NCBI GenBank assembly: GCA_020831765.1
Contig: JAFIFY010000091.1
Location: forward strand, 1 to 60,794
DNA: 60,794 bases
Source: Phycisphaeraceae bacterium
Lineage (GTDB): Bacteria > Planctomycetota > Phycisphaerae > Phycisphaerales > Phycisphaeraceae
Reading direction: 5' to 3'
Every line of letters begins with the position of its first letter. Within the stretch, counting starts at the first letter, position 1. This document shows, piece by piece, positions 53,716-60,794 of this stretch. Made by a program: the position numbers and the translations under genes. A model generated the notes under the pieces. That model did not search any database. It saw nothing but the letters and a program-made list of their open reading frames with translations, and was not told where the DNA came from.

Positions 53716-55923
53716 ATGCCCCTGGAAACGGTTGACCTGGACAGCCTGACCGAGCCGCAGCGTTTGGCGGCGACTCACCTGGATGGCCCGATGCTGGTGC
53801 TGGCCGGGCCGGGCTCGGGCAAGACCCGGGTGATCACCAGTCGCGTGGCTTACCTGGTGCGTGAAGCCGGCATCGCGCCGTGGCAGGTGTGCGCGATCAC
53901 CTTCACCAACAAGGCCGCCGCCGAGATGCGCCGCCGCGTCGAGTGCTTTCTCACCGAGAGACAAGCCCGCGCCGCCAATCTCTCGACCTTCCATGCCCTC
54001 TGCGCCAAGCTGTTGCGGCAACACGGACAACGGGTCGGTCTAACGCCCAACTTCTCCATCTACGCCATGGACGAGCAACAAGCCCTGGCCAAGCAGGCCA
54101 TCGAGCAGGTCAAACTTCCGGCGACCTCGTTTCAGCCCTCAGCGCTTCTGGGCCGGATCAGCAGCGCGAAGAATGAACTGGTCGATTGCCACGCCTTCGC
54201 AGCGCAGGCCTCGGGGTTCGTCGAGAAGAACGCGGCCAAGGTCTATGTGGCCTATGAGAAATTGCTCCGGGCCAACCAGGCGGTGGATTTCGATGATCTG
54301 CTGGTGTTCGCCGTGCGATTGCTCAGCGAACATCAGGACATCCGCGGCCAGGTGCAGGATCGATGGGCCTACCTCCTGATCGATGAATACCAGGACACCA
54401 ACATCGCCCAGTTCCGATTGGCCGAGCTGATCGCCGGGCCGCGCGGCAATCTTGTGGTCGTCGGTGATCCGGATCAATCCATCTATCGCTGGCGCGGCGC
54501 TGATATCCGCAATATCCTCGATTTCGAATCCCATTTTCCCAATGCCCGGGTGGTGCGGCTTGAACAGAACTTCCGATCGACCCAGCACATTCTGACCGCC
54601 GCCGACCGGCTGATCGGCCACAACACCGGACGCAAACCCAAGAAGCTTTTCAGCGATCTGGGCGACGGCCAGCAGGTCAGAATCGTGCGCTATCTGGATG
54701 GCTCGGCCGAAGCCCAGCAGGTGGCGCGCTGGCTGATGGACCTGCATGTCACCCATGGCGTGCCGTATGCGCAGATGGCGGTTTTCTACCGCGTCAACGC
54801 GCTGAGCCGTGAACTGGAGACGGCGTTCCGCAACGCGGCCATCCCCTACCAGATCGCGCGCGGCACGGCGTTCTTCGAGCGCAAGGAAATCCGCGATGCC
54901 CTGGCCTACCTGCGAATGCTGGTGAACCCGGATGATTCGCTGGCCCTCGAGCGGATCGTCAACCTGCCGCCGCGCGGCATCGGCGCCCAATCCCTCAAGG
55001 CCGTCGAAGCCTGGCGCATCCAGCACGGTCTTTCGCTGTTCCAGGCCATGAAGCAGGCCGAACACATTACCGGCCTCAAAGCCCGCGCGATCGCATCGCT
55101 CAAGGCATTTACCGATCAGGTGGACCGCTGGCGACATGACCTGGACGCCCCACCGGATGATTCGCTCATCGGCGGGCAATCGGAATACCGCCTGCGGGCG
55201 TTCGTCGAGCGATTGATCCGCCAGTCCGGACTGGAAAAGTTCTACAAGGGCAAGGAACAGGAGCCGGACGAGGAACGCGCCTTGAACCTCGGCGAACTGG
55301 TGAGCTTCACGCAGCAGTTCGAGCAGGAGCTGCTGCGGACGATGGATGAGCCGCCGACACTGCGCGCCCGGCTGGAAGCCCTGATGGAACGCGTCGCCCT
55401 GGTCAGCGATGCCGATGGCCTGGAATCGGAAAGCGGCATGGTCAGCCTGATGACCATGCACACGGCCAAGGGGCTGGAGTTCGATGCCGTGGCCGTCATC
55501 GCCGCTGAGGATGGCCTGCTGCCCCATCAGCGGGCATCGCAGGAACTGGAAGAGCTCGAGGAAGAAAGGCGATTGCTCTTCGTGGCCATGACCAGGGCTC
55601 GAAAGTGGCTCCAGGTCAGCCACACCCAGCTACGCATGGTCTTCGGAAACATGCAGAGCGCCATCCCCAGCCGCTTCCTGAGGGAGATCAAGGGCGCCGG
55701 CGTCCGGGAGAAGCGCGACGACACGCCGGCCGAGTTCCAGGGCGGGCGAGGCGATGTGGAATCGGTCACCGGCTCGGCGTTCGCCCCCGGCGTGGAAGTG
55801 AACCACCCCATGTTCGGGCGCGGCCGAATCATCCAGGCATCCGGCGGCCGACTCACCGTCCGCTTCGAAACCTTCGGAATCAAAACCCTGATGCGCGACA
55901 TCGCCCCGCTCTCACGGGTGTAG
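53716..55923 (+). CDS. pcrA: UvrD/PcrA family superfamily 1A DNA helicase
   Basis: The 735-residue protein has all SF1A motifs: Q motif and Walker A GPGSGKTR (31-38), ITFTNKAAAEM, LIDEYQDTN (motif II, Walker B), VVGDPDQSIYRWRGA (motif III), QNFRST (IV), TMHTAKGLEFDAVAVI (V) and VAMTRARKWL (VI). The C-terminal 50 residues form a Tudor-like fold (VEVNHPMFGRGRIIQASGGR) as in PcrA and UvrD, which contacts RNA polymerase. It unwinds DNA 3' to 5' in nucleotide excision repair, mismatch repair and replication restart. AGGA lies eight bases before the ATG. Confidence 0.95.
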   Translation: MPLETVDLDSLTEPQRLAATHLDGPMLVLAGPGSGKTRVITSRVAYLVREAGIAPWQVCAITFTNKAAAEMRRRVECFLTERQARAANLSTFHALCAKLLRQHGQRVGLTPNFSIYAMDEQQALAKQAIEQVKLPATSFQPSALLGRISSAKNELVDCHAFAAQASGFVEKNAAKVYVAYEKLLRANQAVDFDDLLVFAVRLLSEHQDIRGQVQDRWAYLLIDEYQDTNIAQFRLAELIAGPRGNLVVVGDPDQSIYRWRGADIRNILDFESHFPNARVVRLEQNFRSTQHILTAADRLIGHNTGRKPKKLFSDLGDGQQVRIVRYLDGSAEAQQVARWLMDLHVTHGVPYAQMAVFYRVNALSRELETAFRNAAIPYQIARGTAFFERKEIRDALAYLRMLVNPDDSLALERIVNLPPRGIGAQSLKAVEAWRIQHGLSLFQAMKQAEHITGLKARAIASLKAFTDQVDRWRHDLDAPPDDSLIGGQSEYRLRAFVERLIRQSGLEKFYKGKEQEPDEERALNLGELVSFTQQFEQELLRTMDEPPTLRARLEALMERVALVSDADGLESESGMVSLMTMHTAKGLEFDAVAVIAAEDGLLPHQRASQELEELEEERRLLFVAMTRARKWLQVSHTQLRMVFGNMQSAIPSRFLREIKGAGVREKRDDTPAEFQGGRGDVESVTGSAFAPGVEVNHPMFGRGRIIQASGGRLTVRFETFGIKTLMRDIAPLSRV

Positions 55924-56019
55924 CTGCCCTGCCGTCATGCCTCAATCGGCCCAAGAAATCGAGCCTCCGGGCCGGACGGCCGACCCCCGGGCCATTCGCA
56001 ATGATGGGCGGCGAACGCG

Positions 56020-56076
56020 GTTTTGATTTCGGCAACGGGGCGGGTAGACCTTGGGCCTTGGCATCACCATCACCCG
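56020..56076 (+). repeat. Promoter module, copy A of a 57-bp direct repeat
   Basis: This stretch matches 57318-57374 at 48 of 57 positions. It holds TTGATT (56023-56028), 16 bases and TAGACC (56045-56050), so it may be a promoter pointing right, toward the 3' end of the convergent kinase-like gene. No gene follows it on the plus strand before rpsR. Confidence 0.75.
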
Positions 56077-56169
56077 ATGGCCCAATCGGCAGATCGGACG
56101 GGCAACTTCTTCAACTCGGCCTGGTTGTCGAGAACCCGGAAGATGCCTTGAGCAACTCGCATGACCAAA

Positions 56170-56976
56170 TTAGACGTGACCGACCGTATCCGCGGGATGA
56201 AGGTGGCTTTTTCCCAACCATCTCCTCACGATACGGCGGGCTTCGGTTCCGACGAAGCGGACAAGTGATCCACAGTATTTGTGCATCACAAGGCGAATCC
56301 GGAAAAAGTTGGAACGAATCGCCTTGATACGTGACTCCAAGGTGGCGTATTCGAAATCAATCAGAACACTCTGGCCGGATTTCGTGATCAAGACGTTCTT
56401 CCCATGGAGATCGTTGTGCGCGATTCCCCGCCACGACATTCGCCAGAGTGTGAGGCAGAGCCGTCCAGTGATCCGAAGCAGGCCTATTGGCCCGAACGTC
56501 ATATTCGCGACCCGCGATCCGGCAATATAGGGATAAATCATGACCTCGACATCACCGCCCCGCCCATGCAACAAGGGCGTCGCCACGCCCGGAATTCCAG
56601 CGCATTGCCGCCGGATGCGATAGTCCCACTCCAGGCCATCCTGTCGCTGATCCGGACGCCACGATTTGTCATGAATCCATATTTTGTAAACCAATCGCCC
56701 GTCAGTATAAAGACGCCGACTGGTGGACTTGTTCGCCTTAAGCAACCTGACATCGGACAATTGGAGTGTATTGAGCACAACCTGCCACCGCGAATCGTCC
56801 GCAGGCGGCTTACGGGAATTATCGGAGCGAACCGCCTGATCCGTCGAAGTCGTATTCGCTTCATCTTCGGCCGCGGCCGACGAGATCATGCTTTGATCCA
56901 AGCGGCTTAGCCGCTGGAAAAAGTCCTGTCGCCAAGCGGCATCTGGTCTGAATTGAACTGTATCCACATCTTCCAT
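56170..56976 (-). CDS. Protein kinase-like (LPS/RIO-type) protein
   Basis: The 268-residue protein has an N-terminal polar region of about 85 residues and a kinase-like core. VYKIW contains a probable beta-3 lysine K98, RGIAHNDLHGKNVLI contains the catalytic loop H187-N-D189 with N194, and LIDFEYA carries D207 of the metal motif (DFE in place of DFG). This fits the RIO/Kdo-kinase or aminoglycoside kinase-like group that phosphorylates surface sugars as well as proteins. The base composition is lower in G+C than the neighbours. It lies, in reverse orientation, between two copies of a promoter module and may have been inserted there. Confidence 0.75.
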   Translation of the reverse strand: MEDVDTVQFRPDAAWRQDFFQRLSRLDQSMISSAAAEDEANTTSTDQAVRSDNSRKPPADDSRWQVVLNTLQLSDVRLLKANKSTSRRLYTDGRLVYKIWIHDKSWRPDQRQDGLEWDYRIRRQCAGIPGVATPLLHGRGGDVEVMIYPYIAGSRVANMTFGPIGLLRITGRLCLTLWRMSWRGIAHNDLHGKNVLITKSGQSVLIDFEYATLESRIKAIRSNFFRIRLVMHKYCGSLVRFVGTEARRIVRRWLGKSHLHPADTVGHV

Positions 56977-57317
56977 CGAGCAAGCCTGAAAACGCTGGTG
57001 AATACCACGTTTAGCACAATGCCACAGCGGCCAACCAAGTGCCGGGACGCCTTCACCCGCCAACCCCGGACGTGCCGAACACCCCAGCGCGCTACCCTAA
57101 AACCACTATCGGCTGCTTGACGGCAAAGAATACATCATGTCGGCGGCATGCGGAAGTCGGGCAACGCTCGCCCTGGGCGACGAAAGCCCTCCATACCCAT
57201 CATAATCGACACAGTCCGGGACTTTCGCGCCGGAGGCCCGCCATGCAAAGGGGCCCATGACCAGCGCGGCCGGACGATCATCCCCGGGACGATCGGTGAC
57301 TACGGCTGGTAAATGGA

Positions 57318-57374
57318 GTTTTGATTTCAGCTCCGGGGCGGGTAGACTACGGGGCTTGGCATCACCGTCGCCCG
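57318..57374 (+). repeat. Promoter module, copy B of a 57-bp direct repeat
   Basis: This copy matches copy A at 48 of 57 positions, 1298 bases to the right. It contains the rpsR promoter. The rest of 56977-57317 has no recognisable gene. Confidence 0.75.
57321..57348 (+). promoter_or_regulatory. Promoter of rpsR
   Basis: TTGATT, 16 bases and TAGACT, with 76 bases from the -10 to the rpsR ATG. The match in copy A shows that both hexamers are in the conserved part. Confidence 0.65.
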
Positions 57375-57424
57375 GGCATGCCAGAGGTGGCTCGGGCTGG
57401 TAACTCATGACGGAGTATTGAATT

Positions 57425-57664
57425 ATGGCAGAGTTTTCGCGATTTCAAAGTGGGCCGACCAAGGTCAAGACCAAGGCCAGCACCGGCCGGTACTACGTGG
57501 ACTACAAGAACGTGGAAGTGCTCCGGCGGATGCTGACGCCCAACGGCAAGATCCTCAGCCGCAAGCGCACCGGCCTCGATGCCCGTGAGCAGCGCATGGT
57601 CGCCCAGGCTATCCGCCGCGCCCGCTACATGGGCCTGCTCCCGTTCACCTCGGCAACGGTCTGA
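57425..57664 (+). CDS. rpsR: 30S ribosomal protein S18
   Basis: S18 binds with S6 to the central domain of 16S rRNA on the platform of the small subunit. The 79-residue protein has the family core YKNVEVLRRMLTPNGKILSR followed by KRTGLDAREQRMVAQAIRRA and RYMGLLPFT. It is of normal length and lacks the zinc-binding cysteines of C+ forms. GGAG lies nine bases before the ATG. In most bacteria rpsR is next to rpsF, ssb and rplI; here it stands alone behind its own promoter. Confidence 0.95.
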   Translation: MAEFSRFQSGPTKVKTKASTGRYYVDYKNVEVLRRMLTPNGKILSRKRTGLDAREQRMVAQAIRRARYMGLLPFTSATV

Positions 57665-57781: not shown

Positions 57782-58336
57782 TTACTCGCCTTCCCGCCTG
57801 ATTTTCCGCTCCTTGATCGGCTTGGCCGGATTGCCGGCGACGACCGTCCAGGGCGGGACATCCCGTGTAACCACCGCACACGCTCCGACCACCACCCCTT
57901 CGCCAAGCGTCACACCCGGCCCGACAAACGCCCGCGCGGCGACCCATGACCACGAGCCGATCGTAATCGGACGAGTGATCAGGTCATGCGTCGGCGAGGT
58001 AAAGTCATGTGAAGCGGCGCAAAGATACGCGCCCTGACTGATCGTCACCTTGTCACCAATCGTGATTTTGTCAACTGAGTAACACTCAACGCCTTCGGCC
58101 AGGGCGACCAGTCTGCCCATGTGCAGATTCCAGGGTGCCCATATCCGGCACGACGGATGAATCTTGCAGCCCTTGCCAATCGTCGCGCCAAAGAGCCGAA
58201 GCAGGAAACGGCGGTAGCCATGCAACGTGAAACTTGGCGTGGGACGATACAGAAGCAGGCAGGCAATGTTCCAGAGCATACGGGCGGCCTTCGACCGCAG
58301 GCTCAACTTGTTCTGATAGGGTTTGACCTCAAGCAT
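57782..58336 (-). CDS. WcaF-like hexapeptide-repeat acetyltransferase
   Basis: The 184-residue protein has an N-terminal helix pair (LSLRSKAARMLWNIACLLL) and a left-handed beta helix built from hexapeptide repeats (IGKGCKIHPSC, ITIGDKVTISQGAYLC, VGPGVTLGEGVVVGACAVVT), ending GNPAKPIKER as in WcaF and related enzymes. ASHDF carries the probable catalytic histidine. It would move an acetyl group from acetyl-CoA to a sugar of an exopolysaccharide. Its start overlaps the upstream pyruvyl transferase gene by eight bases, so both are translated together. Confidence 0.9.
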   Translation of the reverse strand: MLEVKPYQNKLSLRSKAARMLWNIACLLLYRPTPSFTLHGYRRFLLRLFGATIGKGCKIHPSCRIWAPWNLHMGRLVALAEGVECYSVDKITIGDKVTISQGAYLCAASHDFTSPTHDLITRPITIGSWSWVAARAFVGPGVTLGEGVVVGACAVVTRDVPPWTVVAGNPAKPIKERKIRREGE

Positions 58337-59459
58337 CGATTCTTGCCAATGTTTCCTGAAGGAACCGATTGCCTGATGCCCGCAATTCGCTGATTCGAGG
58401 CATCACCGCATCCCAATCGATCGCCCGCTCCAGAATCGAATCGACCGTCGTTTCCCCGGAAGGGTCCAGCCAGCGATCCATCAGCCCCATCTGCTCCAGC
58501 AAAGCGGTGAGCCGACCGCTAAGCGATCGTTTCTTGCCATCAAGGCCAATGGCGACGAAAGGCTTCTGGAAGAGGATACAGAATACGGTGCCATGAAACG
58601 AATTGGTCACCACAAAACGAGCGCGTCGGATATGGGCAAGCCAATCGCCGGGGGAAAGCGTTCGCTGCTCAGCATCGAGTTTCCACCGCTGATGGGGATT
58701 GAATGGCGTGACGGCTTTGATCTTGAGTTTTTCGCCAAATTTGTGAATCAACTCGCCAATCAACCCCTGACCGCGAAGAACATACGCGAACAAAAACTCT
58801 TCGGATTCCGCCGTTCCCATGATCCGGCTGTAATCGTTAAGCAGAAACGTCGGATCGGGCGTGAGGATGGCTTTACGCCCCGTCAATCGATCGATCAGAT
58901 CGATTCCCGACTGCTCCCGCACGCCAAGATCATCCATCTGAAGCAGCAACTCCCGCAACCGGGGGTGATACTCCTCTTCAATGTCCGAGCGGCCGAAGCT
59001 CGCGGCGTAAGCGATCTTGCGAACCGACGGCGGGGCAAACGCGGCGAAATACGCCGGATCAAGCCCGTAACGCAGTGGTGGGTTCCATATCTGGTCGCTC
59101 CCACAAACCACCGCGTGATATTGATCGGCGACATGCCGCAATTCATCATGGGACGTGAGCGTCCGCTCCGAGAGAATCAGATGCTGACGCTGGAACTCGG
59201 TGAATTGATCGGCAAAACCCCGGCTCAGCAGTTTTGTCTTGAGATTCGCCCACTTGATGAAGAGCACCTGGGCATTGATCTTGAGGTTGCGGCGAGAGGT
59301 CGGAATCCGCAACCGCCCGCCGTGCGTCATGTATCGAGGGCGGTAATCAATCAATTCGGCATCATGGCCGAGGGACCGCAAATGGGCCATCAATGCATAT
59401 GCCTGCATGACAGCGCCATAGTTCTCAGCGAAGTGAAAGGTGAGAATTCCAATCTTCAT
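58329..59459 (-). CDS. Polysaccharide pyruvyl transferase family protein
   Basis: The 376-residue protein begins MKIGILTFHFAENYGAVMQA, the usual first strand and loop of this family, with VVCGSDQIWNP, YAASFGRSD, LTPDPTFLL and ARFVVTNSFHGTVFCILFQK (a GT-B-like sugar-nucleotide site with the SFH motif) as further landmarks. Members add a pyruvate ketal from phosphoenolpyruvate to sugars of capsules and secondary cell-wall polymers. The start at 59459 is preferred to an ATG at 59513 on family grounds; neither has a good Shine-Dalgarno. It is followed in overlap by the acetyltransferase gene. Confidence 0.9.
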   Translation of the reverse strand: MKIGILTFHFAENYGAVMQAYALMAHLRSLGHDAELIDYRPRYMTHGGRLRIPTSRRNLKINAQVLFIKWANLKTKLLSRGFADQFTEFQRQHLILSERTLTSHDELRHVADQYHAVVCGSDQIWNPPLRYGLDPAYFAAFAPPSVRKIAYAASFGRSDIEEEYHPRLRELLLQMDDLGVREQSGIDLIDRLTGRKAILTPDPTFLLNDYSRIMGTAESEEFLFAYVLRGQGLIGELIHKFGEKLKIKAVTPFNPHQRWKLDAEQRTLSPGDWLAHIRRARFVVTNSFHGTVFCILFQKPFVAIGLDGKKRSLSGRLTALLEQMGLMDRWLDPSGETTVDSILERAIDWDAVMPRISELRASGNRFLQETLARIDA

Positions 59460-59542
59460 TGGCAATCTGGGCGACACTGCGCATCCTGGCGGGTGGGACG
59501 AACCGAGATTCATGGTGCGAGAGTTTCAGCGAGGTTCATCAA

Positions 59543-60550
59543 CTAGGCTGAATGGACAAATAGAACCTCCGAAAGCGGCGGCCGCGGGGAAGGAGCGGCA
59601 AACTTGACCGAAGGGTTCGGCCTTCCAAAGCTTATCAGCATAAGCAGCCTTTCTGAATCGGGAATCCCACCGCATCGCCGCAGTCGGCGTTCCTTCGAGT
59701 TACGGAAGGCGATGTTCAGCGGGCATGCCGCCAGCCCTCGCGCATGGAGTGCTAAGAGAAGGTTCATCGCGAATAGACTGCCATCAATGTAATCTTGATT
59801 TCGTGAACTGCTGGCACTCCAAGCAGTGATTTCAGATGTGACGACAAAAAGGTTTCTTACCTCGTTGCTGAAGCCCGACGTGCCCCCCTGTATCGCCAAC
59901 AACTCCCGAATCTTCGCTTCATCCTGATAAAGATGCAAATTTGGCGACTGACGATTACACTGCGAAGGGGCCTGTTGCGCCGCCCTAACTATCAACTCCA
60001 CTTCCTTCAAGGGTATGACCTCCGGCAGATAGCTTCTACTGCTAAAACGTGACCGGATGAACTCCAAGTAGCTGAATCGTCGATCAGCAATCGATTCAAA
60101 AACCGTGGAGATATCGCGAAGACTGAATCCGGCACCGACTTTGTCCCGAAGGAATTTTTCGTTCCAGAGTTCTTGAAAATGCGCAACCTTTTCAATCCAC
60201 GGATCTGTAAGCTTTCGCTCGGTATGAAACCTCAGGTACTCATGGATGGCATGCATCGACATCTGGATGCTGAAATCAGCCTCATTCTTGGGGTAATCCA
60301 TCACCATCTCATGGAGAAGTTGGATATTCGCCTTGCCGAAGAACGGCCGCGGCTGCGCCAACGAAAGACCTTTTTCGACCGTGTGGGCAGTGAGAATAAT
60401 GTCAAAAAACAGGCGACGTTCTTTGGGTGCCAGCGGCGAACCTTTCCCATACCTAATAAAACGATAAAAATCCTTGATGTATTCAACAGGCAGTAGTGCC
60501 AACGACAATGCCTGCTGAAGTTTCCATTTTGTCAACGGGTTCATCATTCC
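59543..60550 (-). CDS. Nitroreductase family protein
   Basis: About 335 residues. The C-terminal part holds an FMN-binding nitroreductase domain (RSRFSSRSYLPEVIPLKEVE, then AAQQAPSQCNRQSPNLHLY and the C-terminal GRPNPSVKFA); the first 150 residues are helical and contain TAHTVEKGLSLAQPRPFFG. This long form is often found in polysaccharide loci beside pyruvyl transferases, as it is here. The start is unsure (60550, 60547 or further upstream at 60625 or 60685). G+C is visibly lower than in most of the window, suggesting transfer. Confidence 0.82.
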   Translation of the reverse strand, partial: GMMNPLTKWKLQQALSLALLPVEYIKDFYRFIRYGKGSPLAPKERRLFFDIILTAHTVEKGLSLAQPRPFFGKANIQLLHEMVMDYPKNEADFSIQMSMHAIHEYLRFHTERKLTDPWIEKVAHFQELWNEKFLRDKVGAGFSLRDISTVFESIADRRFSYLEFIRSRFSSRSYLPEVIPLKEVELIVRAAQQAPSQCNRQSPNLHLYQDEAKIRELLAIQGGTSGFSNEVRNLFVVTSEITAWSASSSRNQDYIDGSLFAMNLLLALHARGLAACPLNIAFRNSKERRLRRCGGIPDSERLLMLISFGRPNPSVKFAAPSPRPPLSEVLFVHSA

Positions 60551-60648
60551 GTTTTCCGCAAAGATTCCGGGCCAAGGGTGTGCCCAAGGCATTCGGAAAT
60601 ACCTGAGTCTCGACAGGCTCACCATCGGATGCGTTTGAAGAGAAAATT

Positions 60649-60658
60649 CCCCCCCCCC
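60649..60658 (-). repeat. Homopolymer tract of ten G (minus strand)
   Basis: Ten consecutive C on the plus strand, about 100 bases upstream of the likely nitroreductase start and 23 bases past the stop of the gene at the window edge. Such tracts slip during replication. Confidence 0.9.
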
Positions 60659-60681
60659 GCTCGACGGTTCCGCATCCCGTC

Positions 60682-60794
60682 TCAATCCAGCGGCCGCAGC
60701 GGCGGCGCGAGCCCCGCGGCGGGTCCGGGCACGAAGCCGAGTTCGCGTAGCCGATTCGCCGCCGTCTGGTTTTCTTCATCCAGGAACAGCACGT
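60682..60794 (-). CDS. C-terminal end of a gene cut by the window edge
   Basis: A minus-strand frame enters from the right edge and ends with TGA at 60682-60684. The visible 36 residues include DEENQTAANRLRELGFVPGP and end in LRPLD. Codon use is G+C-rich, unlike the nitroreductase gene that follows. No family can be named from so short a piece. Confidence 0.5.
   Translation of the reverse strand, partial: VLFLDEENQTAANRLRELGFVPGPAAGLAPPLRPLD

Follow-up and report, generated by a model that had tools for sequence, protein, structure and literature searches.

The nearest known counterpart of the element reported here is the RpsF leader of E. coli (RF02893). According to Babina 2015 (PMC4647458), S6:S18 represses translation through this leader, changing two conserved cytosines abolishes the regulation, and the location of the Shine-Dalgarno sequence in stem H1 is supported. 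In our control, the sequence matched by RF02893 reads CCUUGCCUCC...GGAGGCUGAAUAAUCCGUAAGGAG: a CCUU strand, a hairpin GCCUCC...GGAGGC, a 3' bulge whose last bases are AAUCCGU, and a strand AAGG that carries the Shine-Dalgarno sequence. The r-leaders listed in PMC7247131 include an S6:S18 leader in Chlorobi, and the S6:S18 leader is termed widespread there. The Chlorobi leader resembles the one described below in being specific to a lineage and in its presumed binding of the same proteins, but it precedes rpsF, ssbA, rpsR and L9 genes; the comparison is by description only. The term planctomycet is absent from the main text of that paper. In the literature searched, which covered titles and the beginnings of abstracts among the matches listed, with the founding papers on the S6:S18 motif outside its scope, no rpsR or S18 leader is reported in this group of Planctomycetota, and the phrases "rpsR leader" and "S18 leader" are found in no paper.

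The window analysed here is a stretch of 60,794 nucleotides from a Phycisphaeraceae bacterium, and makes up all of contig C8 of its genome. It contains two copies of a control region, A and B, and only B lies in front of rpsR. The reading that we prefer, with a probability of roughly 0.7, is that B is a working, autoregulated control region of rpsR, and A an old duplicate, most likely without function.

The duplicated unit and its surroundings

From left to right, the locus consists of a UvrD-type helicase gene (+), copy A, a kinase-like gene (-), copy B, rpsR (+) and three genes on the - strand. The features needed below are:

53716..55923, + strand: UvrD/PcrA-type helicase gene (Pfam UvrD-helicase 2.4e-86, UvrD_C 9.4e-65)
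55932..56107, + strand: copy A of the duplicated unit, from local alignment to B; best preserved part 56020-56076
56170..56976, - strand: kinase-like gene with a catalytic motif of APH / Kdo-kinase type (Pfam APH 5.2e-5, barely above the cut-off)
57238..57405, + strand: copy B of the duplicated unit, from repeat finder and local alignment; best preserved part 57318-57374
57321..57348, + strand: promoter-like pair TTGATT, 16 nt, TAGACT (4/6 per hexamer; a second placement ties)
57362..57416, + strand: candidate rpsR leader RNA (model R1 49 bits, alignment, covariation, fold)
57425..57664, + strand: rpsR, ribosomal protein S18 (PF01084 1.4e-21; TIGR00165 67.7 bits, cut-off 38.75)

An earlier note on this DNA had reported a 57-bp repeat, and both its figures are recovered when recomputed: copy A at 56020-56076 and copy B at 57318-57374 are identical at 48 of 57 positions, and lie 1298 bases apart, start to start. 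The runner-up 57-base match to copy B inside the window reaches 31/57 on the + strand, and 29/57 on the - strand. The repeat had been called a promoter module. A promoter-like core is indeed present, but the 57 bases are only the best-kept part of a longer unit, and their 3'-terminal part belongs to the beginning of an RNA leader. A repeat finder stretches the repeat to 107 nt at 72% (55970/57268); local alignment pairs 55932-56107 with 57238-57405 at a score of 56, against 23 for the top of 500 dinucleotide shuffles; and a stricter scoring pairs 55970-56076 with 57268-57374 at a score of 71, against 33 for the top of 1000 shuffles. Leaving gaps aside, the copies are 84% identical in their core and less so in the flanks (left 76%, right 71%). 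The duplicated unit, of about 170 bp, begins 8 bases past the stop of uvrD and stops just short of the sequence bearing the Shine-Dalgarno of rpsR.

The assignment of the module to the rpsR control region is borne out, copy B sitting before a gene that matches PF01084, as is the description of copy A: no recognised gene follows it on its own strand, and the next feature is the 3' end of the kinase-like gene, on the opposite strand. A + strand open frame does span copy A (55605-56327), and it starts far upstream within uvrD, in a different frame. The duplication as such also stands: when 63 bases of copy B are searched against the 193 contigs (4.71 Mb) of the window's own genome, the two copies are the sole matches at E <= 0.001. 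A genome-wide repeat or mobile element was considered and dismissed, there being just these two copies. In relatives, a direct repeat of the rpsR control region is absent from the 44 other loci tested (flanks of 1.5-4 kb), so that the window is the sole case among 45; the self-matches seen in ten of the other loci are inverted, not direct.

The kinase-like gene had been described as poorer in G+C than its surroundings. This holds with respect to the whole window (54.9% vs 61.9%), but the three genes past rpsR are similarly low, at 59.6, 55.6 and 51.3%. These genes, a WcaF-like acetyltransferase, a polysaccharide pyruvyl transferase and a nitroreductase-like gene, form a low-G+C block that adjoins rpsR at 57782-60685 (-); rpsR stands alone on the + strand between the kinase-like gene and this block.

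The kinase-like protein has one clear, distant family match (G023, 29% identity, E 2.9e-18), and its NCBIfam matches are all far under cut-off. Four of 60 relatives have a match to its gene, a weak one in three of the four. In a sample of the class, 39 of 297 other genomes have matches, at E 4e-6 or weaker, and nearly all of them around the catalytic motif. The structure predicted from the one sequence has a mean pLDDT of 32.1. The same genome has a second kinase-motif fragment, 46% identical over 50 residues to the window kinase, where another contig ends (L038, G000:C60:7-156).

A conserved, covarying leader before rpsR

Copy B combines the promoter-like pair with the first half of a structured 5' leader that continues into the Shine-Dalgarno sequence. 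The promoter call before rpsR is a weak one, made from sequence; a promoter scan returned no promoter-like site over its threshold at either copy. In the leader, stem 1 pairs 57365-57369 with 57409-57413, stem 2 pairs 57370-57377 with 57390-57397, and the 3' bulge occupies 57398-57408, with UCA at 57405-57407. The outer stem 1, CCGUC with GACGG, overlaps the Shine-Dalgarno GGAG of rpsR at 57412-57415. Folded alone, the 56-nt leader has a z of -1.81; a 78-nt piece of B adopts a somewhat different outer pairing, no better than shuffles (z -0.51). The leader has no match in Rfam. Membership of a known Rfam family was rejected: the one weak match, to an L31 leader, has 27.3 bits for a cut-off of 33 and falls within the kinase gene (56222-56259, on the strand opposite to rpsR).

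A conserved, covarying leader precedes rpsR in relatives. Their upstream regions share, right before the start codon, the pattern CCGUCGCCC, a variable hairpin, GGGC, a bulge and GACGGAG. When 28 leaders are aligned to the two-stem structure, 95.9% of the cells are paired. Changes on both sides of a pair occur in 34 cells, vs a shuffle mean of 11.4; none of 500 shuffles is as high, and slid controls give at most 10. The same 500 shuffles fail to attain any of five covariation measures, and sliding the partners abolishes the signal. Most of the covariation lies in stem 2; stem 1 is paired in all leaders, and shows both-side changes in 2 of its 5 pairs. The 28 leaders were chosen out of 56 listed, those omitted being mostly very long hairpins, near-copies and leaders with a variant outer stem. 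Six of 51 automatic picks had been dropped as misparsed (L015, L053, L057, L071, L072, L073), and L015 and ten others were added manually.

The 28 leaders were used to build a covariance model, R1; the window leader is one of them, so that its 49-bit match is a match of the model to its own input. Over 84 loci, R1 yields 57 matches at E <= 0.1, including the leader in L072, one of the picks dropped earlier. In a first set, which is the best 30 of 59 places, an R1 match stands immediately upstream of rpsR in the window and in 28 of the 29 relatives, 29 of 30 loci in all; in a second set, it does so in 25 of 52. Restricted to loci outside the model, the counts are 7 of 8 and 19 of 46; five of those 19 recur from the first set (three of the five being in the model), which leaves 14 of 41 as new. 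The misses are L008 and 27 loci of the second set, among which are leaders with a variant outer stem and members of other orders and phyla (L086-L090). Upstream of rpsR in L061, L063-L066, L069 and L070, a variant of the leader can be seen by eye, with an outer stem UCGUC/GACGA and an AAAGG Shine-Dalgarno; these have no R1 match at E 0.1.

Outside the order, the leader is found before rpsR in none of 29 loci taken from the best S18 matches of a 118-genome sample of the phylum; the single R1 match in this set is weak (L246, E 0.19), and not upstream of rpsR. In eight of these loci (L226, L227, L228, L231, L232, L237, L238, L253), rpsR seems to come after the end of an ssb-like gene, a reading made by eye from the tail motif. 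A scan of 392 genomes of the phylum with R1 gives matches in at least 15, of which 13 belong to the order, the window's own genome included. The tally is a lower bound: 15 candidates were scored per genome, and G030 was missed even though its rpsR locus, L018, has the leader. The matches outside the order, L133 and L134, are counted as false because there is no rpsR in the 1.8 and 3.1 kb around them.

In all 27 genomes with both genes placed, rpsF and rpsR are apart: 22 genomes have them on separate contigs, and the 5 that carry both on a single contig have them about 113 kb or more from each other. The rpsF of the window's own genome is on contig C181, separate from rpsR. An R1-like leader precedes rpsF in 1 of 28 rpsF loci, in G013 (L139, 1801-1845, - strand, E 0.015); no rpsR was found in that incomplete genome. 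A distinct pattern, in which the 5' side has CGG or UGG and the 3' side has ACCG, is shared by the upstream regions of rpsF in ten loci, as read by eye (L142, L144, L145, L151, L152, L156, L159, L160, L162, L163), and is perhaps another leader, on rpsF, in this family; an alignment of 13 rpsF upstream regions was too loose for model building.

Comparison with S6:S18 leaders and the 16S site

The rpsR leaders have two stacked stems, the outer one overlapping the Shine-Dalgarno, as in leaders of the RF02893 type, with covariation mainly in the inner stem. The order of elements is the same as in the RpsF leader: stem 1, stem 2, a long 3' bulge with CC, and the strand of stem 1 with the Shine-Dalgarno. 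In both, the inner hairpin starts with GCC and ends with GGC, and the CC motif comes just before the outer strand. The differences are that the RpsF leader precedes the rpsF operon and the leader of Phycisphaerales a lone rpsR, and that the triplet is CCG in the former, whereas in the latter it is mostly CCA, and UCA in the window genome. Applied to a 1.9-kb stretch of E. coli, R1 has its best match on the RpsF leader, weakly (6.8 bits, E 0.51). Conversely, RF02893 has no match over its cut-off in 61 genomes; weaker matches occur in 19 of the 61, and none of the 23 listed lies at an rpsR leader. That model is narrow, since it passes its own cut-off in only 1 of 14 control genomes.

Once 5 duplicate rows and the 3 matches that do not precede rpsR (L008, L133, L134) are set aside, 49 rpsR leaders remain: the bulge triplet is CCA in 38 of them, CCG in 5 and UCA in 3, and the other 3 were unread or misread; the raw counts over 57 matches are CCA 40, CCG 7, UCA 5, misread 1 and unread 4. 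A CC-purine triplet is thus present in 43 of 49 leaders, with CCG in just 5. The three leaders with UCA are those of the window, L004 and L005, and one of the two conserved cytosines is therefore missing from the window leader. Of 30 loci (the best 30 of 41 genomes with a 16S match), 21 have CCA and 9 have CCG in the 16S stretch that we compared, and which we take to be the S6:S18 site; the CC-purine rule is common to leaders and 16S. The third base of the triplet agrees in 10 of 15 pairs of leader and 16S from the same genome, the leader of L026 having been read by eye. All 5 pairs with a G in either triplet disagree, and there is therefore no sign that leaders track the 16S finely.

The leader is probably a lineage-specific autoregulatory RNA of S6:S18 type, carried by an rpsR apart from rpsF, as judged by analogy with E. 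coli. The promoter in copy B would transcribe rpsR with its 5' leader RNA. S18, probably as the S6:S18 complex, would bind the unit formed by stem 1, bulge and stem 2 when in excess over free 16S rRNA, and the bound protein or complex would keep stem 1 closed and block the translation of rpsR, as in the E. coli RpsF leader. We infer the promoter activity, the binding of S18 or S6:S18 and the translational repression; repression by S18, likely as S6:S18, is suggested by the E. coli architecture, the CC-purine triplet, the 16S likeness and the leader of G013. Against this reading stand the UCA triplet of the window and the want of an RF02893 match over cut-off in the 61 genomes. The leader might answer to something other than S18 or S6:S18, or merely set translation efficiency, an alternative in keeping with a key triplet that deviates in the very genome under study. 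We consider it unlikely, as position, architecture, CC-purine triplet and Shine-Dalgarno location all match the leader bound by S6:S18 in E. coli.

Copy A and the origin of the duplication

The promoter-like core of copy A reads TTGATT, 16 nt, TAGACC, where copy B has TAGACT. Three of the nine differences between the copies are this last T of the -10 (57348) and leader positions 57367 and 57370. Of 46 loci, window included, 42 keep the T in their best hexamer, a count to be read knowing that the consensus score itself favours T; the two leader positions are invariant in all 28 aligned leaders. A recognisable leader is absent from copy A: the 5' half is broken, the 3' half, with the closing strand of stem 1 and the Shine-Dalgarno, has been lost or replaced, no recognised gene follows, and R1 has no match, even with filters off. 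Model match, intact outer stem and Shine-Dalgarno, the marks of a functional rpsR leader, are all missing, and copy A was rejected as a second leader on the lack of an R1 match. It was also rejected as an unusually stable RNA (z 0.70 and -0.45).

On its sequence, copy A is most likely a relic, a decayed duplicate of the rpsR control region, and we infer that it is silent. The copies differ by 16% over the core and by 24-29% over the flanks, which would roughly suit a neutral A beside a constrained B; the 84% identity of the core could also mean that A is kept for some use. Compared with an ordinary duplicated promoter relic, copy A has the same conserved core, changed functional positions and lack of a recognised gene, and nothing was found that sets it apart.

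The earlier note had proposed instead that copy A is an active promoter, whose RNA, antisense to the 3' end of the kinase-like gene, couples the expression of the kinase with that of ribosomal proteins. The core at 84% identity to B, and the orientation of A towards a convergent gene about 115 bases away, speak for such a role. The -10 T to C change at a position where 42 of 46 loci have T, the lost leader, a control region without direct repeat in the 44 other loci, and a kinase-like gene so rarely matched in relatives leave this coupling without support, and we hold it to be very improbable. The arrangement itself, whose absence from every relative the note had named, together with a lack of transcription from A, as what would refute its proposal, is absent from all relatives examined. 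Still less credit can be given to the combined scenario in which rpsR of Phycisphaerales left the rpsF operon with its own S6:S18-type leader mimicking the order's CC-purine 16S site, one complex controlling unlinked mRNAs, and in which copy A of this genome still yields a leader-like RNA that carries no gene and extends antisense into the kinase gene.

The duplication may have arisen in more than one way, and the order of events is a conjecture from the present arrangement. The genes uvrD and rpsR are adjacent in none of the 30 relatives with both placed: 24 relatives have them on separate contigs, and in the other 6 a single contig carries both, about 141 kb or more from each other, many of these genomes being in pieces. 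The neighbourhood therefore looks special to the window genome; the search for relatives returned no genome of the same genus.

It is possible, though doubtful, that an insertion brought the kinase-like gene to its place between uvrD and rpsR and duplicated the rpsR control region in the same event. Direct repeats flank the gene, its G+C is lower, at 54.9%, and its homologues are patchy and distant; but a Pfam scan finds no integrase or transposase among six neighbouring proteins, the three genes past rpsR have a G+C about as low, and uvrD and rpsR are not neighbours in the 30 relatives. Usual target duplications are shorter than about 170 bp, and the repeat exceeds them. A tandem duplication of control region and rpsR, with later loss of the first rpsR or its replacement by the kinase gene, would account for a unit that begins right after uvrD and ends inside the leader, and yet no remnant of rpsR was found between A and B; we consider this history rather unlikely as well. 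The search for such a remnant gave a best DNA score of 19, vs a maximum of 25 in 200 shuffles, and a best tblastn E of 0.48.

By whichever route it arose, the duplicate itself looks like a case of ordinary decay, and the leader is the more interesting part. It is a candidate cis-regulatory RNA, supported by covariation, for a stand-alone rpsR in an order of Planctomycetota. As such, it offers a test of how autoregulation persists with rpsR and rpsF apart, and of whether the form of the leader follows the order's own 16S site.
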